From positions 1 through 20,745 of IMG/VR virus record IMGVR_UViG_3300035034_001010: DNA of 20,745 nt; one strand, 5' to 3'. The translations under genes and the position numbers were made by a program. Position 1 is the stretch's first letter. Each line of letters begins with the position of its first letter. This DNA comes from a virus. A model generated the notes under the pieces. The model saw nothing but the letters and a program-made list of their open reading frames with translations, was not told the DNA's origin and did not search any database. Positions 3,419 to 17,181 of the stretch are shown here, piece after piece.

Positions 3419-3563
3419 TACACCTGACACTATCAGAGAACACATCAATCTTCAACCAAATCATAATAGATATGGACCCCATGCAAAGGATACTGACCAA
3501 ATAATAATTCCAGTATCTTCTATCTTTCGCTGGATAGTAAGGTGGTTTAAAAATAAAAGATAA
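3375..3563 (+). CDS. small basic ORF (62 aa), doubtful
   Basis: It overlaps the previous frame by 44 nt and has no obvious ribosome site. The product is polar and ends in a basic amphipathic stretch (SIFRWIVRWFKNKR) that could touch membranes. It lies on the coding strand before a late promoter. It is listed because nothing else explains 3420-3563, but it may be spurious. Confidence 0.3.
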   Translation: MRLEKEKKWKENANDTPDTIREHINLQPNHNRYGPHAKDTDQIIIPVSSIFRWIVRWFKNKR

Positions 3564-3582
3564 CTACCATAATACCAGTATA

Positions 3583-3590
3583 TATAAATA
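3583..3590 (+). promoter_or_regulatory. T4-type late promoter (TATAAATA)
   Basis: A perfect TATAAATA octamer lies in an intergenic stretch 68 nt upstream of the ATG at 3659, in the correct orientation. That gene has a strong ribosome site and is closed by an intrinsic terminator, giving a complete single-gene late unit. gp33, encoded in this window, is the co-activator such promoters need. Confidence 0.6.
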
Positions 3591-3658
3591 AAGATATAGA
3601 ACAGATCAATGGTTGATATGAGTCTATACAAAACAAATTTCAAAGAAAGGAGAAAGTT

Positions 3659-3904
3659 ATGTTATCGGGAATTAAACAAAAAGCGGTCATGTTTGCTATT
3701 GGATTCGTCATTGAAAAATTAGATGAGGAAACAATCAAGCTATTTCTGGATTTTGGGTTAGATTTACTGGAAAATGCTGTAGAGTCATCTGAGAACAAAA
3801 TAGATGATCAGTTGGTACTCCCTGTCTGTAAAATCATAAGGGATTCTCTCAAGATCGAAGATAATGATGATCCTAAAGAATTACCAGCACCAGAAGTTAA
3901 ATAG
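3659..3904 (+). CDS. 81-aa unknown late protein
   Basis: AAAGGAG with 7-nt spacing precedes the ATG. The product starts with a moderately hydrophobic amphipathic region (MLSGIKQKAVMFAIGFVIEK), followed by an acidic helical segment (residues 21-70) and a Pro/Glu-rich tail. The N-terminus is not long or hydrophobic enough to be a confident transmembrane segment. It sits alone between a late promoter and a terminator, immediately before the M15 endolysin, so a lysis-related role is possible but unproven. No named family was recognised. Confidence 0.75.
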   Translation: MLSGIKQKAVMFAIGFVIEKLDEETIKLFLDFGLDLLENAVESSENKIDDQLVLPVCKIIRDSLKIEDNDDPKELPAPEVK

Positions 3905-7479: not shown

Positions 7480-10122
7480 CTACGAGCTATTTTGGTTATA
7501 GAGTAAGTTCGTACCCCTATCTATATCATGTGGGCTTACAGGCATCGTTATGTTCGTTGTACCACCTGTTACAAAATTCTTCACATCAGATACAGATTCT
7601 CCGATGGCTTGTGCTGTTTGAGATCCCCTTGTAGCTTCTTTGGTTGCATCAAGAGCATCCTTCATTTCAGACATTAACTGCATACGGGCGTTTTCTGATG
7701 TGTTATATATCATAGTAAGAGTTTTACTCACTTCCATACCTTGAGCATTTGTTAGTAACTCTCCTGCAATACCTTTAGCAAGAGATCCAGTTGCAGCTAT
7801 CCCTTCACCGATTCCTGCGGCTGATATATTTAAGTTTGCATTACCACTCTTAGCAAAATCTTTAGCTTGTGCTATAATATCAGCACCTATCTCTTTCCCA
7901 CCAGACCCAATAAAAGCTGCTGATCCTGCAAGAGTTCCATTTTTCAATCCAAACGTATCAACAAGATCTTCTCCAGAAGGTATCATGTTCTCTTTTTGGA
8001 CCGCTTTTTCAACCTTTCCATCTCGTTTTTCTTTTCTAGCTTTGCGATTAGCCTTCATCTTTTCAGCTAGTAGTTTGTTCTGTTTCTCTTGTTCTTTCTT
8101 TTCCTTTCTATGAGTAATATCATAAAACCAACCACCAAGAGATTGGCCCTTTTCTCCTGTTAGTTTCTCCATTCCTTGATCGATCTTGTTATTAATAAAA
8201 GTACCAATACCAAAACCTGCTGCTCCTGCTCCTGCTACTAATGCTAATGGTCCTGCTATAGTAGCCAGTGTACTTAGTAAAGGACCAAGACTTCCTACAA
8301 GAGCTATTATACGACCACCCAAACCAGTCAATAATGTACCTATAGATCCTATTTTAGTACCAAAAGGTCCAAGAAATCCCATAATAGTACCCATTATACC
8401 ACCACTACCTTTATTAGAGGAATCTTCAGGAATAAGCGAACCGTCTTTTAATGTATCGTAAATCCCCTTTGTGGAATCCCGAATTGATATGATATTATCT
8501 TTAGCCTCTCTCTTTTGTTCTTCTTGTCCTATACTATCACTATCATCACTATCATCACTACTACTCATTATAATATCAGGGCCGTTTGCTTGATGAAGTA
8601 TATCATATATACCCCTAACTGATCGGGTAATAGACACTACGTTAGGATGATTCATAGCTTGTAATGATACTGGGTAATCATCTGCTTTACCACTAACCAT
8701 ACAAGCACAAAGACCATCTCTAAGTCGGTCTATAGCATCGACCTCTTCTATATTAGCATCCTCTATTTTTTCAAGAGTATCAAGGTTTTGTGCTTCAAAT
8801 ACACTAAACGAACCAGTCATTGTGGGAAATACACCAATACCACTATTCAATATATGGAATATCTTCTCATCCCAACCAACACCATGTCCTAACTCTTCAT
8901 GTACCCGCTCAAGAATGTCTACGGTCTTCTCTCCATCTGTCTTGGCCTTTTCTTTCTTACCAAACATAGCTTCTTTTAGTTTATCACCAATTGAAACCTT
9001 AGTAAAGTCATGCCATAATTTAGCGAATCCGGTTTTTTCTTCTTCTTTGGGTGCAGTGTGCTTACGAATATCTTTAAGAATATCAGCTTGCTCTTCTATA
9101 TTCTTACCCATACCAAAAAAACCACGATCACCCTTAGTACTGGTATTTCCTGATATCTTTTCTAATAGTAATGTTTGTTGAACTTCTTGTGTTCTTTTAC
9201 CTTTAGACCATATAGAGAAGAATTTACCAGAAAGGGCAGCTAAACCTAATGTTAGAGGAGTTACAGAAGCTGCAAAGGCACCCACAATTCCAGCACCCAC
9301 AACAGACATTGCAGGAAGAAAGTTATTCATGGCCCTATGAATAGCAAGACCCATAGCTGATTTATTTCCAGTATTCTCTTCGATCTTTTCTAATAAAGCA
9401 GTATCACCCTTATTTTTGCCGTTTAGAAGAGATTCATTAATACTACCAAGAATAGAAATAATCTCTAACTGATTATCTAATTGAGCATTACCAATAGAGT
9501 TAGTGTCTCTATATTTACCACCTCTCTTACTACGATCCTCTAACATTACTCTGAATAATCGCTGTTGATAATCAGCATTACCATCCTTATCAACACCAAC
9601 ACTATGCCTTATGGCTCTCCATGTTTGGAGTATTTCTGAACGCTCAAAGGCAAATAGGTTGATAAATCCTCTACGTAATGTCTCAGGAAAGGATATTAAA
9701 CCACTAGCTATAGACTTGGCTATCCTCTTATTATTCTCTATCCTTTCCTTTTCAGATTTAATAAGATTATCTTGTTCTTTCGATTTTGCTAAACCATCAA
9801 TTATACCATCATATGTACCTTTATAAATACAACCATAAACCTTGCATATCTTATTTGTTTTTGATGATTCTGTTACTGGAGATTCCGTCTTGGATACGTT
9901 CTTATTATGAGTCTGAAGATACTCTTTCATAGCTTGAGCAATAGAAAGAGTATCTTTACCGAGTTTCTTTAAATCATCTTTAAGAACATCTGTCTGGCTA
10001 TCGACCTCTTTTATACGATTTATGGCTTCACGGAGATCCACCTTACCGTCATTATTTTTATCAGCAGTTAGTGATGGAACTCTGTTACCGTTTTTATCTA
10101 TATTTCTTGGTGGTTTACTCAT
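7480..10122 (-). CDS. tail tape-measure protein with an EF-hand
   Basis: This 880-aa protein is the last gene of the minus-strand tail unit, straight after gp26. It has the tape-measure signature: a long helical, charged chain with two Gly/Ala-rich hydrophobic zones (about 266-305 and 575-645, the latter GTLLTGLGGRIIALVGSLGP and similar). Short repeated elements include LLEKIEENT (244), LLLEKISGNT (318) and ILKDIRKHT (348), and a doubled SIxxSxxGIYDxL motif (about 496 and 545). Residues 21-32 (DKNNDGKVDLRE) are a canonical calcium EF-hand loop. Tape measures set tail length and enter the host membrane with the DNA; the hydrophobic zones fit that role. It is longer than T4 gp29 (590 aa) and not obviously its homologue by sequence. 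A chaperone-assisted assembly is expected from its neighbour. Confidence in the class is good, in the T4 name low. Confidence 0.78.
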   Translation of the reverse strand: MSKPPRNIDKNGNRVPSLTADKNNDGKVDLREAINRIKEVDSQTDVLKDDLKKLGKDTLSIAQAMKEYLQTHNKNVSKTESPVTESSKTNKICKVYGCIYKGTYDGIIDGLAKSKEQDNLIKSEKERIENNKRIAKSIASGLISFPETLRRGFINLFAFERSEILQTWRAIRHSVGVDKDGNADYQQRLFRVMLEDRSKRGGKYRDTNSIGNAQLDNQLEIISILGSINESLLNGKNKGDTALLEKIEENTGNKSAMGLAIHRAMNNFLPAMSVVGAGIVGAFAASVTPLTLGLAALSGKFFSIWSKGKRTQEVQQTLLLEKISGNTSTKGDRGFFGMGKNIEEQADILKDIRKHTAPKEEEKTGFAKLWHDFTKVSIGDKLKEAMFGKKEKAKTDGEKTVDILERVHEELGHGVGWDEKIFHILNSGIGVFPTMTGSFSVFEAQNLDTLEKIEDANIEEVDAIDRLRDGLCACMVSGKADDYPVSLQAMNHPNVVSITRSVRGIYDILHQANGPDIIMSSSDDSDDSDSIGQEEQKREAKDNIISIRDSTKGIYDTLKDGSLIPEDSSNKGSGGIMGTIMGFLGPFGTKIGSIGTLLTGLGGRIIALVGSLGPLLSTLATIAGPLALVAGAGAAGFGIGTFINNKIDQGMEKLTGEKGQSLGGWFYDITHRKEKKEQEKQNKLLAEKMKANRKARKEKRDGKVEKAVQKENMIPSGEDLVDTFGLKNGTLAGSAAFIGSGGKEIGADIIAQAKDFAKSGNANLNISAAGIGEGIAATGSLAKGIAGELLTNAQGMEVSKTLTMIYNTSENARMQLMSEMKDALDATKEATRGSQTAQAIGESVSDVKNFVTGGTTNITMPVSPHDIDRGTNLLYNQNSS

Positions 10123-10157: not shown

Positions 10158-10337
10158 TTATTTCTTCTTCATGGCTTTTGCTTTTTTAGCTTGTGACTTC
10201 TGTAATAACGCTATATAGATCTCTCTCTCATATGGAATCATATTCTCTAATTCTGTAAGATTAAAACTAAAATCATTCATCAGTACGAAGTTCGTCTCAT
10301 AGATGCTATAGATGTTATCATGACTTAACCCTATTAG
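10158..10337 (-). CDS. gp51-like 59-residue extension, reached by -1 frameshift from gp26
   Basis: This minus-strand frame is open from the end of gp26 to the TAA at 10160-10158. From the slip point it reads LIGLSHDNIYSIYETNFVL then MNDFSFNLTELENMIPYERE and IYIALLQ with a Lys-rich end. The segment looks coherent upstream of its first ATG (10280-10278). That ATG has no good ribosome site and would give only 40 aa, so independent initiation is less likely than frameshifting. The 'L-E-N-M-I-P-Y-E-R-E-I-Y-I-A-L-L' helix has the style of the second-frame domain of tail-assembly chaperones (lambda T, P2 E'). In T4 the corresponding hub-assembly factor gp51 is a separate gene near gp26. The full fusion would be 311 aa. 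Confidence 0.65.
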   Translation of the reverse strand, partial: LIGLSHDNIYSIYETNFVLMNDFSFNLTELENMIPYEREIYIALLQKSQAKKAKAMKKK

Positions 10338-11092
10338 AAAAAATCGTTTATCCCACTAAACGTATATTCTCCATCAACACCACAAGCAGCACATTTATAT
10401 TTAATGGTATGTGATAGGGTCGGCATAGTATAGAAGAATTCCTTACGGATTTTTTCGATAAGTTTTGTAGAAAGGTTATCCACAAATTCCTGTAGTTCTT
10501 CCTTACTGGTATCAGCCACATCATATATCTGATCCTTATCATATATGCTCTCTATGAGGTTGAAAATTATCTCAATATCATCATCCTTATTAGCCTCTAA
10601 CATCTCAACGTCATCGACTGAAGGATATCTCATAGTGATACCTATATCGTTTTCCAGGCTAATAGTTTTAGTATGGCCTTCAGGAACGTTTACTTTAATA
10701 TCTTCGATGTTAATGACGAATGGAATAACGCCACCACAAGGCTTCTTGATAGTCTGTGTATCACCACCACCTTCTACTGCTGGTATAATCTTATCTACTT
10801 CATTGATGCACTTCATATCTATCTCTATAACTTCCCCCACAGACTTAGCCCGTAATTGTAAGAATATATATTCGAGATCAAACAGGGCAAGCTGTTTCGT
10901 ATCCAGCTTCTGGTATGTACACACATCAACAATTTCTCTTACAGAAGAAAGAATCTCCTCAGAGTTAGATGATTGTTTTACCATCATTAAAATCTTTTCT
11001 TCTTTGGATAAGAAAGGACGAAACTTGACCTTCTTTCCTGATGATGGTATGGTCATTGTGTAAGACTGAATTGTTAATTTTGGTAATGACAT
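10334..11092 (-). CDS. 26: gp26-type baseplate hub / tail-assembly chaperone protein
   Basis: AAGGAG sits 9 nt before the ATG. The 252-aa product fits the T4_baseplate (gp26) family (T4 gp26 is 208 aa): the opening LTIQSYTMTIPSSGKKVKFRPFLSKEEK, the helix FDLEYIFLQLRAKSVGEVIE, PFVINIEDIKVNVPEGH, and a C-terminal SHTIKYKCAACG. Cys95, Cys119, Cys234 and Cys237 could hold a zinc ion. In T4, gp26 is needed for assembly of the baseplate hub. Here the gene stands between a tube-fold protein and the tape measure and ends in a frameshift site, the position and behaviour of the tail-assembly chaperone of other long-tailed phages. Name from family resemblance; chaperone role inferred from context. Confidence 0.85.
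   Translation of the reverse strand: MSLPKLTIQSYTMTIPSSGKKVKFRPFLSKEEKILMMVKQSSNSEEILSSVREIVDVCTYQKLDTKQLALFDLEYIFLQLRAKSVGEVIEIDMKCINEVDKIIPAVEGGGDTQTIKKPCGGVIPFVINIEDIKVNVPEGHTKTISLENDIGITMRYPSVDDVEMLEANKDDDIEIIFNLIESIYDKDQIYDVADTSKEELQEFVDNLSTKLIEKIRKEFFYTMPTLSHTIKYKCAACGVDGEYTFSGINDFF
10337..10343 (-). promoter_or_regulatory. -1 programmed frameshift site (T TTT TTC)
   Basis: On the minus strand the last codons of gp26 are GAT TTT TTC TAA, giving the heptamer T-TTT-TTC (X-XXY-YYZ) directly before the stop codon, the classical arrangement for -1 slippage. Slippage leads exactly into the 59-codon open frame. A GGGA lies about 7 nt upstream and could act as an internal Shine-Dalgarno stimulator. 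No strong downstream hairpin was evident by eye. Confidence 0.65.
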
Positions 11093-11149: not shown

Positions 11150-11674
11150 TTAAAATCTTTCTATCGTATATGTATGATATGTAAAATTTACAGAAAGTTT
11201 AGACGGTCCATCTGCATCATATGATAATGGAACATCTGCCATTCCTATAGGGTATGCTTCTGTTAATCTGACATCTGCGACCTTATTTTCTCTCAAGTCG
11301 TATATAAGTATATTTATGTCAGCAACTATATCATTGTAGTAAGACATCCTAAAATTACTCTCTCCTGCAATAAGGCGCATCCAGTCATCTATAAACCCAA
11401 TCTCCCACATATGATGGCCGTTGTAAAAAGTTAGTGATAGATCATCAAATAACTCTTCATTAGGAATCTTTCTTTTCGGTCCGGCTATACTATGCTCAAA
11501 TGTTCCTATATTGTGGCCAGGTATAGACGCTTCACTACAACTAAAGGATATTGCTTTGGCCTTGGCAGCATCGATAGCCACAGGACCATTAATAATAACT
11601 TCATATCTATTTGGTTCTAGTAACGGATTATTTGCTATATGTCCGACTATCTGCTTGATTCCAAATTTTCCCAT
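11150..11674 (-). CDS. gp19-fold tail tube or tube-initiator protein
   Basis: The 174-aa product matches the T4 gp19 tube family in size (163 aa) and pattern: an N-terminal NRYEVIINGP strand, FSCSEASIPGHNIGTFEHSI resembling gp19 'FQCKATALPAGIVEKIPVGF', then FDDLSLTFYN (gp19 'FDDWTVTVMN'), a helical FIDDWMRLIAG segment, and a final strand SVNFTYHTYTIERF. Such proteins form hexamer rings of the inner tail tube. It may be the main tube protein or a baseplate-proximal paralogue; T4 gp54, the initiator, is longer (320 aa). CAGGAG gives a strong ribosome site. A TATAAATA late promoter lies just upstream, inside the end of the homing-endonuclease gene. Confidence 0.82.
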   Translation of the reverse strand: MGKFGIKQIVGHIANNPLLEPNRYEVIINGPVAIDAAKAKAISFSCSEASIPGHNIGTFEHSIAGPKRKIPNEELFDDLSLTFYNGHHMWEIGFIDDWMRLIAGESNFRMSYYNDIVADINILIYDLRENKVADVRLTEAYPIGMADVPLSYDADGPSKLSVNFTYHTYTIERF

Positions 11675-11676
11675 TT

Positions 11677-12384
11677 TTATGCTCCTGTGTTGCTATTTAT
11701 ATAATAACAGTCTAGATTATTTGGATTTCTACACCAATAAGATACAGTAGAGGAATGCACTCTTAAGTGTTCAGATGCTTTTTTAACAGACTCAAATTTT
11801 TCTTCTTTTATTATGCACACTTTACTCATTTTTTTCAGTGCTTCTTCTGAGAGCTTTTTCCCTTTCTTGGATGCACTAATTTTCTTCTTTGTCTCTTCTG
11901 AATGAGTTTTTCCTTTTATGGATTGACTCATTCTTTTCTTGGCTTCTTCTGATATTACTTTTCCTTTATGTACTTTCCCTATTTTCTTTTTTGTTTCTTC
12001 TGATATTACTTTTCCTTTATGTGCTTTCCCTATTTTCTTTTTTGTTTCTTCTGAATGAGTTTTTCCATAGTTAGGATTATTTTCTCCACAAATACTACCA
12101 CCACATCCTCCTTGTCTCATATTATAGCAATTAATATTACTTATCATTTCTTCATTAACAATCTCAGCTTCCTTCAGGTATGCTTCTTCAGAACTATCAA
12201 ATCTGAACAACATCTCCCTTTTAAAATTATCCCTTCCATATTTCTTTATTGCACCCTTTAAAGCCAAGCCACTGCCCAAATATCTACCATTACCAGCACC
12301 TTTAACTTTATGGACACCAATATAGAACTTTCCACTAATTAAGTTTGTTGTTTCATATACTATATAATTTCCCGTATTTTCCAT
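11677..12384 (-). CDS. GIY-YIG free-standing homing endonuclease (Seg-like)
   Basis: The 235-aa product begins with a GIY-YIG nuclease domain: NYIVYETTNLISGKFYIGVHK supplies the two strands (Y-I-V at 7-9, Y-I-G at 21-23). RYLGSGLALKGAIKKYG and an E-A-E-I-V-N-E-E helix, which holds the metal-binding Glu, follow. Residues about 104-185 are five tandem NUMOD3-type DNA-binding repeats (S-E-E-T-K-K-K-I-G-K-x-H-K-G-K). The C-terminus (residues about 195-222: FESVKKASEHLRVHSSTVSY) is a NUMOD1/helix-turn-helix module. Such enzymes cut phage relatives lacking the gene and spread by repair. It starts 5 nt after the upstream stop, and its 3' end carries the late promoter and ribosome site of the tube gene. 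It interrupts an otherwise continuous structural gene unit. Confidence 0.93.
   Translation of the reverse strand: MENTGNYIVYETTNLISGKFYIGVHKVKGAGNGRYLGSGLALKGAIKKYGRDNFKREMLFRFDSSEEAYLKEAEIVNEEMISNINCYNMRQGGCGGSICGENNPNYGKTHSEETKKKIGKAHKGKVISEETKKKIGKVHKGKVISEEAKKRMSQSIKGKTHSEETKKKISASKKGKKLSEEALKKMSKVCIIKEEKFESVKKASEHLRVHSSTVSYWCRNPNNLDCYYINSNTGA
11694..11701 (-). promoter_or_regulatory. T4-type late promoter (TATAAATA) for the tube protein gene
   Basis: On the minus strand TATAAATA (11701 to 11694) is followed by GCAACACAGGAGCATAAAAATG, so the octamer lies 19 nt before the ATG of the gp19-like gene. It is embedded in the last codons of the upstream GIY-YIG endonuclease gene. Confidence 0.65.
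11944..12045 (-). repeat. 51-bp tandem duplication inside the homing endonuclease gene
   Basis: Units 11944-11994 and 11995-12045 differ at one base. Each encodes one 17-aa NUMOD3 repeat (ISEETKKKIGK-x-HKGKV). A third, diverged unit follows at 12046. The near-identity indicates a recent in-frame duplication. Confidence 0.9.
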
Positions 12385-14629: not shown

Positions 14630-14944
14630 ATGAAAACATTTAAAACCCTAATATCAGAAGACACAGATGTTCAAGGTCTGACTGAAACACAATTATTACG
14701 GAGTGCCATTACCGAAGAATTAGATGCTGTAATTCTGTATGAGAAAATGGCCGAACAAACCATTAACCCCGATCTCAGAAAACTCTTCTTAGATGTTGCC
14801 TATGAAGAAAAAGTCCATGCTGAAGAATTCGAAGAGATGCTTGAACGTCTAGATCCTGATTATGAAAAAGCAGAAGATCAGGCCGAAGATGAGATTGAAG
14901 ATATGTTCGGGAAAGAAGAAGATGATAAAGAGGATGATGACTAA
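14630..14944 (+). CDS. ferritin-like (encapsulated-ferritin/rubrerythrin type) small protein
   Basis: The 104-aa product has two predicted helices at about 22-44 (LLRSAITEELDAVILYEKMA) and 47-74 (PDLRKLFLDVAYEEKVHAEE). They carry Glu30, Glu60 and His63, in the E-(x29)-E-x2-H spacing of the ferroxidase site of encapsulated ferritins (Glu32, Glu62, His65 in the Rhodospirillum rubrum protein, from memory). Such half-ferritins form the metal site at a dimer interface. The last 25 residues are a very acidic tail (EDEIEDMFGKEEDDKEDDD). The gene lies 2 nt after gp48 and overlaps gp53 by one base (TAATG), so it belongs to the baseplate unit. Iron binding is a prediction; the short N-terminus MKTFKTLISE resembles those of some T4-like virion proteins. 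Confidence 0.78.
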   Translation: MKTFKTLISEDTDVQGLTETQLLRSAITEELDAVILYEKMAEQTINPDLRKLFLDVAYEEKVHAEEFEEMLERLDPDYEKAEDQAEDEIEDMFGKEEDDKEDDD

Positions 14945-17085: not shown

Positions 17086-17181
17086 AGGATAGTGGTAAGG
17101 ATAGTGGTAAGGATAGTGGTAAGGATAGTGGTAAGGATAGTGGTAAGGATAGTGGTAAGGATAGTGGTAAGGATAGTGGTG
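17086..17181 (+). repeat. eight tandem 12-bp repeats (AGGATAGTGGTA)
   Basis: Seven identical copies of AGGATAGTGGTA run from 17086 without spacers; the eighth (17170-17181) ends in G. A further copy in the same context (AAGGATAGTGGTGGAATAGTA) appears at both 17169-17189 and 17293-17313, about 124 nt apart. Confidence 0.97.

Follow-up and report, generated by a model that had tools for sequence, protein, structure and literature searches.

The gp26-like gene in the window, by which we mean the whole 20,745-nt stretch of viral DNA that was analyzed, stops directly after a run of thymines, and an open frame in the -1 register continues beyond its stop codon. The arrangement raises the question of whether this locus encodes one protein or two. 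Many phages control tail length with the help of a longer chaperone made by a -1 slip. The locus is very probably a T4-type tail assembly chaperone gene that makes two products by a -1 frameshift. Its features are collected in Table 1. On the minus strand, the 3' end of gp26 is GAT TTT TTC TAA. The -1 reading is TTT TTT, then CTA ATA GGG TTA AGT CAT ... AAA, which corresponds to LIGLSHDNIYSIYETNFVLMNDFSFNLTELENMIPYEREIYIALLQKSQAKKAKAMKKK. The extension has exactly 59 sense codons (10161-10337) followed by a TAA at 10158-10160, and the predicted fusion of gp26 and the extension after slippage is about 311 aa. A recheck on the sequence returned the coordinates, the T-TTT-TTC abutting the stop and the 59-codon frame exactly as the preliminary description had given them. 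The first ATG, GTG or TTG of the -1 frame in the window is the ATG at 10280, which is codon 19. A TAG at 10358-10356 closes the -1 frame, so there is no start in that frame upstream of the heptamer. TTTTTTC occurs 16 times in the AT-rich window compared to 7 expected by chance. The heptamer alone is not rare in the window, and the conserved feature is its in-frame position at the end of gp26.

Table 1. Features of the chaperone locus and its neighbors (window positions).
Feature	Position	Strand	Basis or note
gp26-like protein, 252 aa	10334..11092	(-)	proposed short tail assembly chaperone, TAC-N
slippery heptamer T TTT TTC	10337..10343	(-)	sequence; gp26 stop TAA (10334-10336) directly after
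-1 frame extension, 59 codons + TAA	10158..10337	(-)	gp51-like C-terminal domain, TAC-C
TAG closing -1 frame 5' of heptamer	10356..10358	(-)	sequence
weak local hairpin just 3' of heptamer	10308..10334	(-)	-4.0 kcal/mol, z -1.49
tail tube protein, gp19-like	11150..11674	(-)	phrog_45 E 8.8e-31; immediately upstream of gp26
880-aa ORF, putative tape measure	7480..10122	(-)	directly downstream; by position and size

Profile searches identified both parts of the locus. The gp26 protein matches PF12322 (T4_baseplate) over residues 10-252 with an E-value of 2.2e-65 and 220.8 bits (cutoff 24.5), and phrog_150 over residues 1-252 (E 9.1e-67). Its AlphaFold model has a pLDDT of 88.6. We did not detect a significant match between gp26 and the PDB by sequence search or by Foldseek; the Foldseek alignment with the HK97 tail assembly chaperone 2ob9 covers 52 columns with an rmsd of 3.4 (E 1.9, probability 0.25). 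The 59-aa extension matches phrog_634 (gp51, baseplate hub assembly catalyst) at profile positions 60-114 of 121 with an E-value of 4.6e-17, and the extension alone also matches the last columns of phrog_150. This match, together with the conservation of the residues upstream of the first ATG described below, bears out the earlier impression that the -1 frame is protein-like on both sides of that codon. The same two domains are found in T4. T4 gp26 is homologous to window-type gp26 (E about 1e-21 to 1e-28), and an HMM of the relatives' tails hits T4 gp51 at residues 203-243 (i-Evalue 1.5e-9). A profile built from the relatives' gp26+tail fusions can be aligned with T4 gp51 from one end to the other, and full-length T4 gp51 falls in the gp26 family in PHROGs at positions 13-280 of 282. 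T4 gp26 and T4 gp51 are mutually similar at 2e-6, a value from a single pair. These alignments make T4 gp51 look like the long form encoded on its own, with a gp26-like N-domain followed by a window-type tail. Because it aligns with the whole fusion, T4 has as a separate gene what the frameshift would make here, and the earlier proposal that the gp51 function is a frameshift product at this locus gains support.

The arrangement was then compared across relatives. Searches by tblastn with the tail returned 487 phage records, mostly from cyanophages, and searches with gp26 returned 1469; three scans of viral contigs yielded about 200 loci. We chose 220 relatives by gp26 similarity, and dereplication left 106 loci. 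The final 15 gp26 codons contain an in-frame T-TTT-TTY in 215 of the 220 loci, including every one of the 121 loci fetched after the pattern had been defined. The dereplicated loci carry TTTTTTC (65 loci) or TTTTTTT (41 loci). The gap between heptamer and stop is 0 codons in 19 of them, the window among these, and 1 codon in 82, a total of 101. Conservation of the Phe-Phe pair alone cannot explain the invariant TTT, because the other Phe codons of these genes are 787 TTT and 305 TTC (28% TTC). The homopolymer of 6-8 T would also suit transcriptional slippage, in which RNA polymerase inserts an extra U as it copies the T run and the fusion comes from ordinary translation of the mixed mRNAs. Six T is short for slippage by a bacterial polymerase. 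Such a run needs no fixed phase, yet the T-TTT-TTY codon phase is conserved, and a covarying mRNA stem and an SD-like sequence flank the site in many relatives. We consider this explanation very improbable.

The tail follows the heptamer in a nearly constant register. All 40 of the dereplicated relatives examined for this have a -1 frame that is open over 50 codons, and each of the other two frames is open in 0 of 40. L002, the nearest relative at 65% identity, has the same arrangement of gp26 and -1 tail. With gp26 as the reference, annotated gp51-like genes are in the -1 register in P-SSM2, Cr30, phiM12, HTVC008M, Ochrobactrum OC and Rhizobium I9, and also in Vibrio, Aeromonas and Kuttervirus phages. 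In 31 of the 40 dereplicated relatives, the earliest possible start is at codon 14 or later of the conserved domain. The pN/pS ratio in these 40 is about 0.21 before the first start, after it and in gp26, and purifying selection has kept the residues LSHD..NYY..NF ahead of the first ATG conserved. The preliminary description had proposed that a conserved heptamer in related phages and conserved residues ahead of the ATG would support a frameshift, and the relatives show both. The window is a single metagenomic contig, so the extension might be a decayed remnant or a sequencing artefact that is not expressed; this is scarcely credible, given that the layout recurs in L002 and in hundreds of records and that the tail is under purifying selection.

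These data also bear on a reading in which the tail is a separate small gene, with a free gp51-like peptide made from the ATG at 10280 or from a non-standard start coupled at the gp26 stop. Codon 19 is indeed an ATG, and in public records the tail is usually entered as a CDS of its own. A start at codon 19 would drop LSHD..Y..NF, residues under purifying selection equal to that of the rest. A separate gene also leaves unexplained the heptamer, the near-constant -1 position of the tail and the gp26-like domain on the same chain in T4 gp51. In its favor, Cr30, PVA23, Rhizobium I9, Vibrio 1.244.A and D506 have a -1 frame ATG that overlaps or adjoins the gp26 stop. For the window, we give this reading a small chance of being correct. 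Frameshifting of a tail assembly chaperone, as first suggested for this gp26, is favored by the heptamer, the open -1 frame and the absence of an independent start before codon 19, all of which are sequence features.

A minority of relatives depart from the pattern. The -1 tail occurs without T-TTT-TTY in Rhizobium I9 (TTT TTG) and in four Ackermannviridae-type phages. The latter (L086, L091, L093 and L094) have sites such as GAA ATT TTC or TCA CTT TTT, and in some of them an ATG overlaps the stop. Relatives with their own ATG, or with the domain and no heptamer, had been named beforehand as evidence that would count against a frameshift. Such relatives do exist as a minority, so frameshifting need not be universal; the heptamer is kept in 215/220 loci. 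Among annotated relatives, S-SCSM1 (L101, MK867354.2) is the one exception to the -1 position of the tail. Around 3480-3690 it keeps the heptamer and has the gp51-like tail in the other shifted frame, which reflects an indel, a sequencing error or a real exception. Annotation of the tail is uneven. The ACG-2014j and DSL-LC03 records have no CDS for it, and the CDS is shortened to an internal start in the S-CAM3, C48C1 and HTVC008M records. The 'baseplate hub' pair that is annotated as two genes in T4 would be one gene with two products in many T4-like phages, and routine annotation misses or truncates the second product.

Synonymous variation pointed to RNA elements around the slip site in the relatives. 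The pS value drops to about 0.1 at extension codons 0-11 and 30-35, compared to about 0.5, and the low-pS stretches are complementary (CCCUUUC/GAAAGGG, CCUCUC/GAGAGG and GCCUUUC/GAAAGGC). They form a long-range stem of 9-12 bp, in which extension nt 8-19 pair with P-W/F/Y-E-R codons that lie about 100 nt farther 3' (L003:3157-3291, for example, and also L014, L053, L096 and L097); this stem was noticed only after the drop in synonymous change pointed there. In the 106 dereplicated loci, several of which share contigs and whose relatedness inflates pairing counts, the 12-pair helix has a mean of 8.93 pairs compared to 7.48 (sd 0.11) after synonymous randomisation and 8.55 (sd 0.07) with the arms swapped between sequences, where 0 of 2000 trials were as high. 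In an alignment of 53 sequences, hand-picked from these loci and omitting a number of loci with few pairs, 82.4% of the cells are paired compared to 77.4% when shuffled and at most 63% when slid, and the cells changed on both sides number 42 versus 19. SD-like 4-mers lie 12-16 nt before the slippery codon in 60 of the 106 loci, compared to 36 (sd 4) expected from synonymous choice. RNAalifold found no consensus structure in a diverse 15-sequence set because the lineages differ, and an Rfam search gave no match of note.

The window lineage lacks the stem. Stem pairing is found in most relatives other than the window and L002, which form 5/12 and 3/12 of the pairs, respectively, and in which the stem is absent. 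The window has no SD-like 4-mer at the expected place. We do not claim a stimulator in the window. The 106-nt stretch 3' of its heptamer folds no better than shuffles (z -0.26), and the local hairpin, a possible but not convincing stimulator, is weak in its L002 equivalent (z +0.48). In the marine relatives, the conserved stem probably helps the slip, and the covarying stem 3' of the heptamer combined with SD-like enrichment 5' of it is possibly new. A fuller proposal, which we rate at even odds, is that marine T4-like TAC sites have an undescribed two-part stimulator, consisting of an internal SD-like sequence, about 12-16 nt 5' of the slippery codon, and a stem of 9-12 bp that begins about 8 nt after the heptamer and pairs with codons some 100 nt further on within the same reading frame, and that the window lineage lost or replaced it and uses the heptamer and the abutting stop. 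The covarying stem makes the slip mechanism directly testable by reporter assays.

The neighborhood of the locus would fit a tail assembly role. The 880-aa ORF has a counterpart in L002, where a homologous ORF occupies the equivalent position (E 1.2e-98). It had no family match, named tape-measure families included, and its assignment as the tape measure protein is putative. The order of tube, gp26/51 and putative tape measure is the order around lambda G/GT, and the same order with annotated tape-measure or tube genes occurs in phiM12, HTVC008M, Cr30 and C48C1. We infer that slippage occurs at this site with an efficiency that would let most ribosomes end at the gp26 stop and release TAC-N of 252 aa. 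A minority would move into the -1 frame at U UUU UUC with two Phe-decoding tRNAs in the P and A sites. The slipped ribosomes would avoid the adjacent UAA and read 59 further codons, producing TAC-NC, a gp26-gp51 fusion with a length of about 311 aa. The lambda gpG/gpGT pair suggests how the two forms may act: the gp26 portion would coat the tape measure protein, whose gene comes next downstream, and the extra domain would bring in the tube protein, whose gene lies just upstream, for assembly of the tube around the tape.

Other features of the window were recorded. A NUMOD3 / GIY-YIG-type homing endonuclease at 11677-12384 lies between the gp2-like and tube genes, and L002 has the empty site, where gp2 ends at 3439 and the tube gene starts at 3444. 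A rubrerythrin/ferritin-like ORF (14630-14944; PF02915 2.3e-11) lies between the gp48-like tube-cap gene and gp53, and an ORF at 894-1220 of L002 resembles it. A perfect 12-bp tandem repeat of 7.9 copies at 17086-17180 would give an SGKD-type repeat if translated. The ORF at 1486-2466, unusual for a phage tail region, is hydrophobic at its N-terminus and has a PAS-like domain that scores close to Pfam's cutoff.

Lambda uses a heptamer other than T TTT TTC. The lambda gpG/gpGT system resembles the arrangement proposed for the window locus: its -1 shift falls close to where the short form ends, and it lies between the tube and tape-measure genes. In T4, gp26 is homologous to window gp26 and gp51 to the fusion; the locus differs in that genes 26 and 51 are separate and divergently transcribed, with no heptamer and no gp51-like 3' tail on gene 26. 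A frameshift in T4 itself is rejected on the same features. In the abstract of the 2022 study by Vladimirov, Gautam and Davidson, T4 genes 26 and 51 are reportedly TAC-N and TAC-NC. T4 gp26 and gp51 have also been listed as hub assembly chaperones (PMC3004832), and neither lambda gpG nor gpGT is found in the virion (PMC5009743). In the Vandenendeviridae phage Adele, a T-rich site at the end of TAC-N gives a -1 shift, as predicted for the window, and its downstream ORF was misannotated as a separate gene (PMC12846349); it belongs to another phage family and uses a GTTTTT motif. The closest precedent is the work on T4-like tail assembly chaperones (Vladimirov, Gautam and Davidson, Virology 2022;566:9-15), which is cited in the PRFect paper (PMC10885494) and the phage Adele paper (PMC12846349) for separate-gene fusions in some T4-like phages and for poly-T -1 signals. 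As represented in those citations, it concerns the same genes and the same idea, in which gp26 is TAC-N and gp26 with a C-domain is TAC-NC, with poly-T -1 signals in several T4-like groups. The T4-like TAC frameshift was thus already published in 2022, and the window is a further case of an idea that is not new, distinguished from those T4-like TACs by a heptamer that abuts the stop directly.
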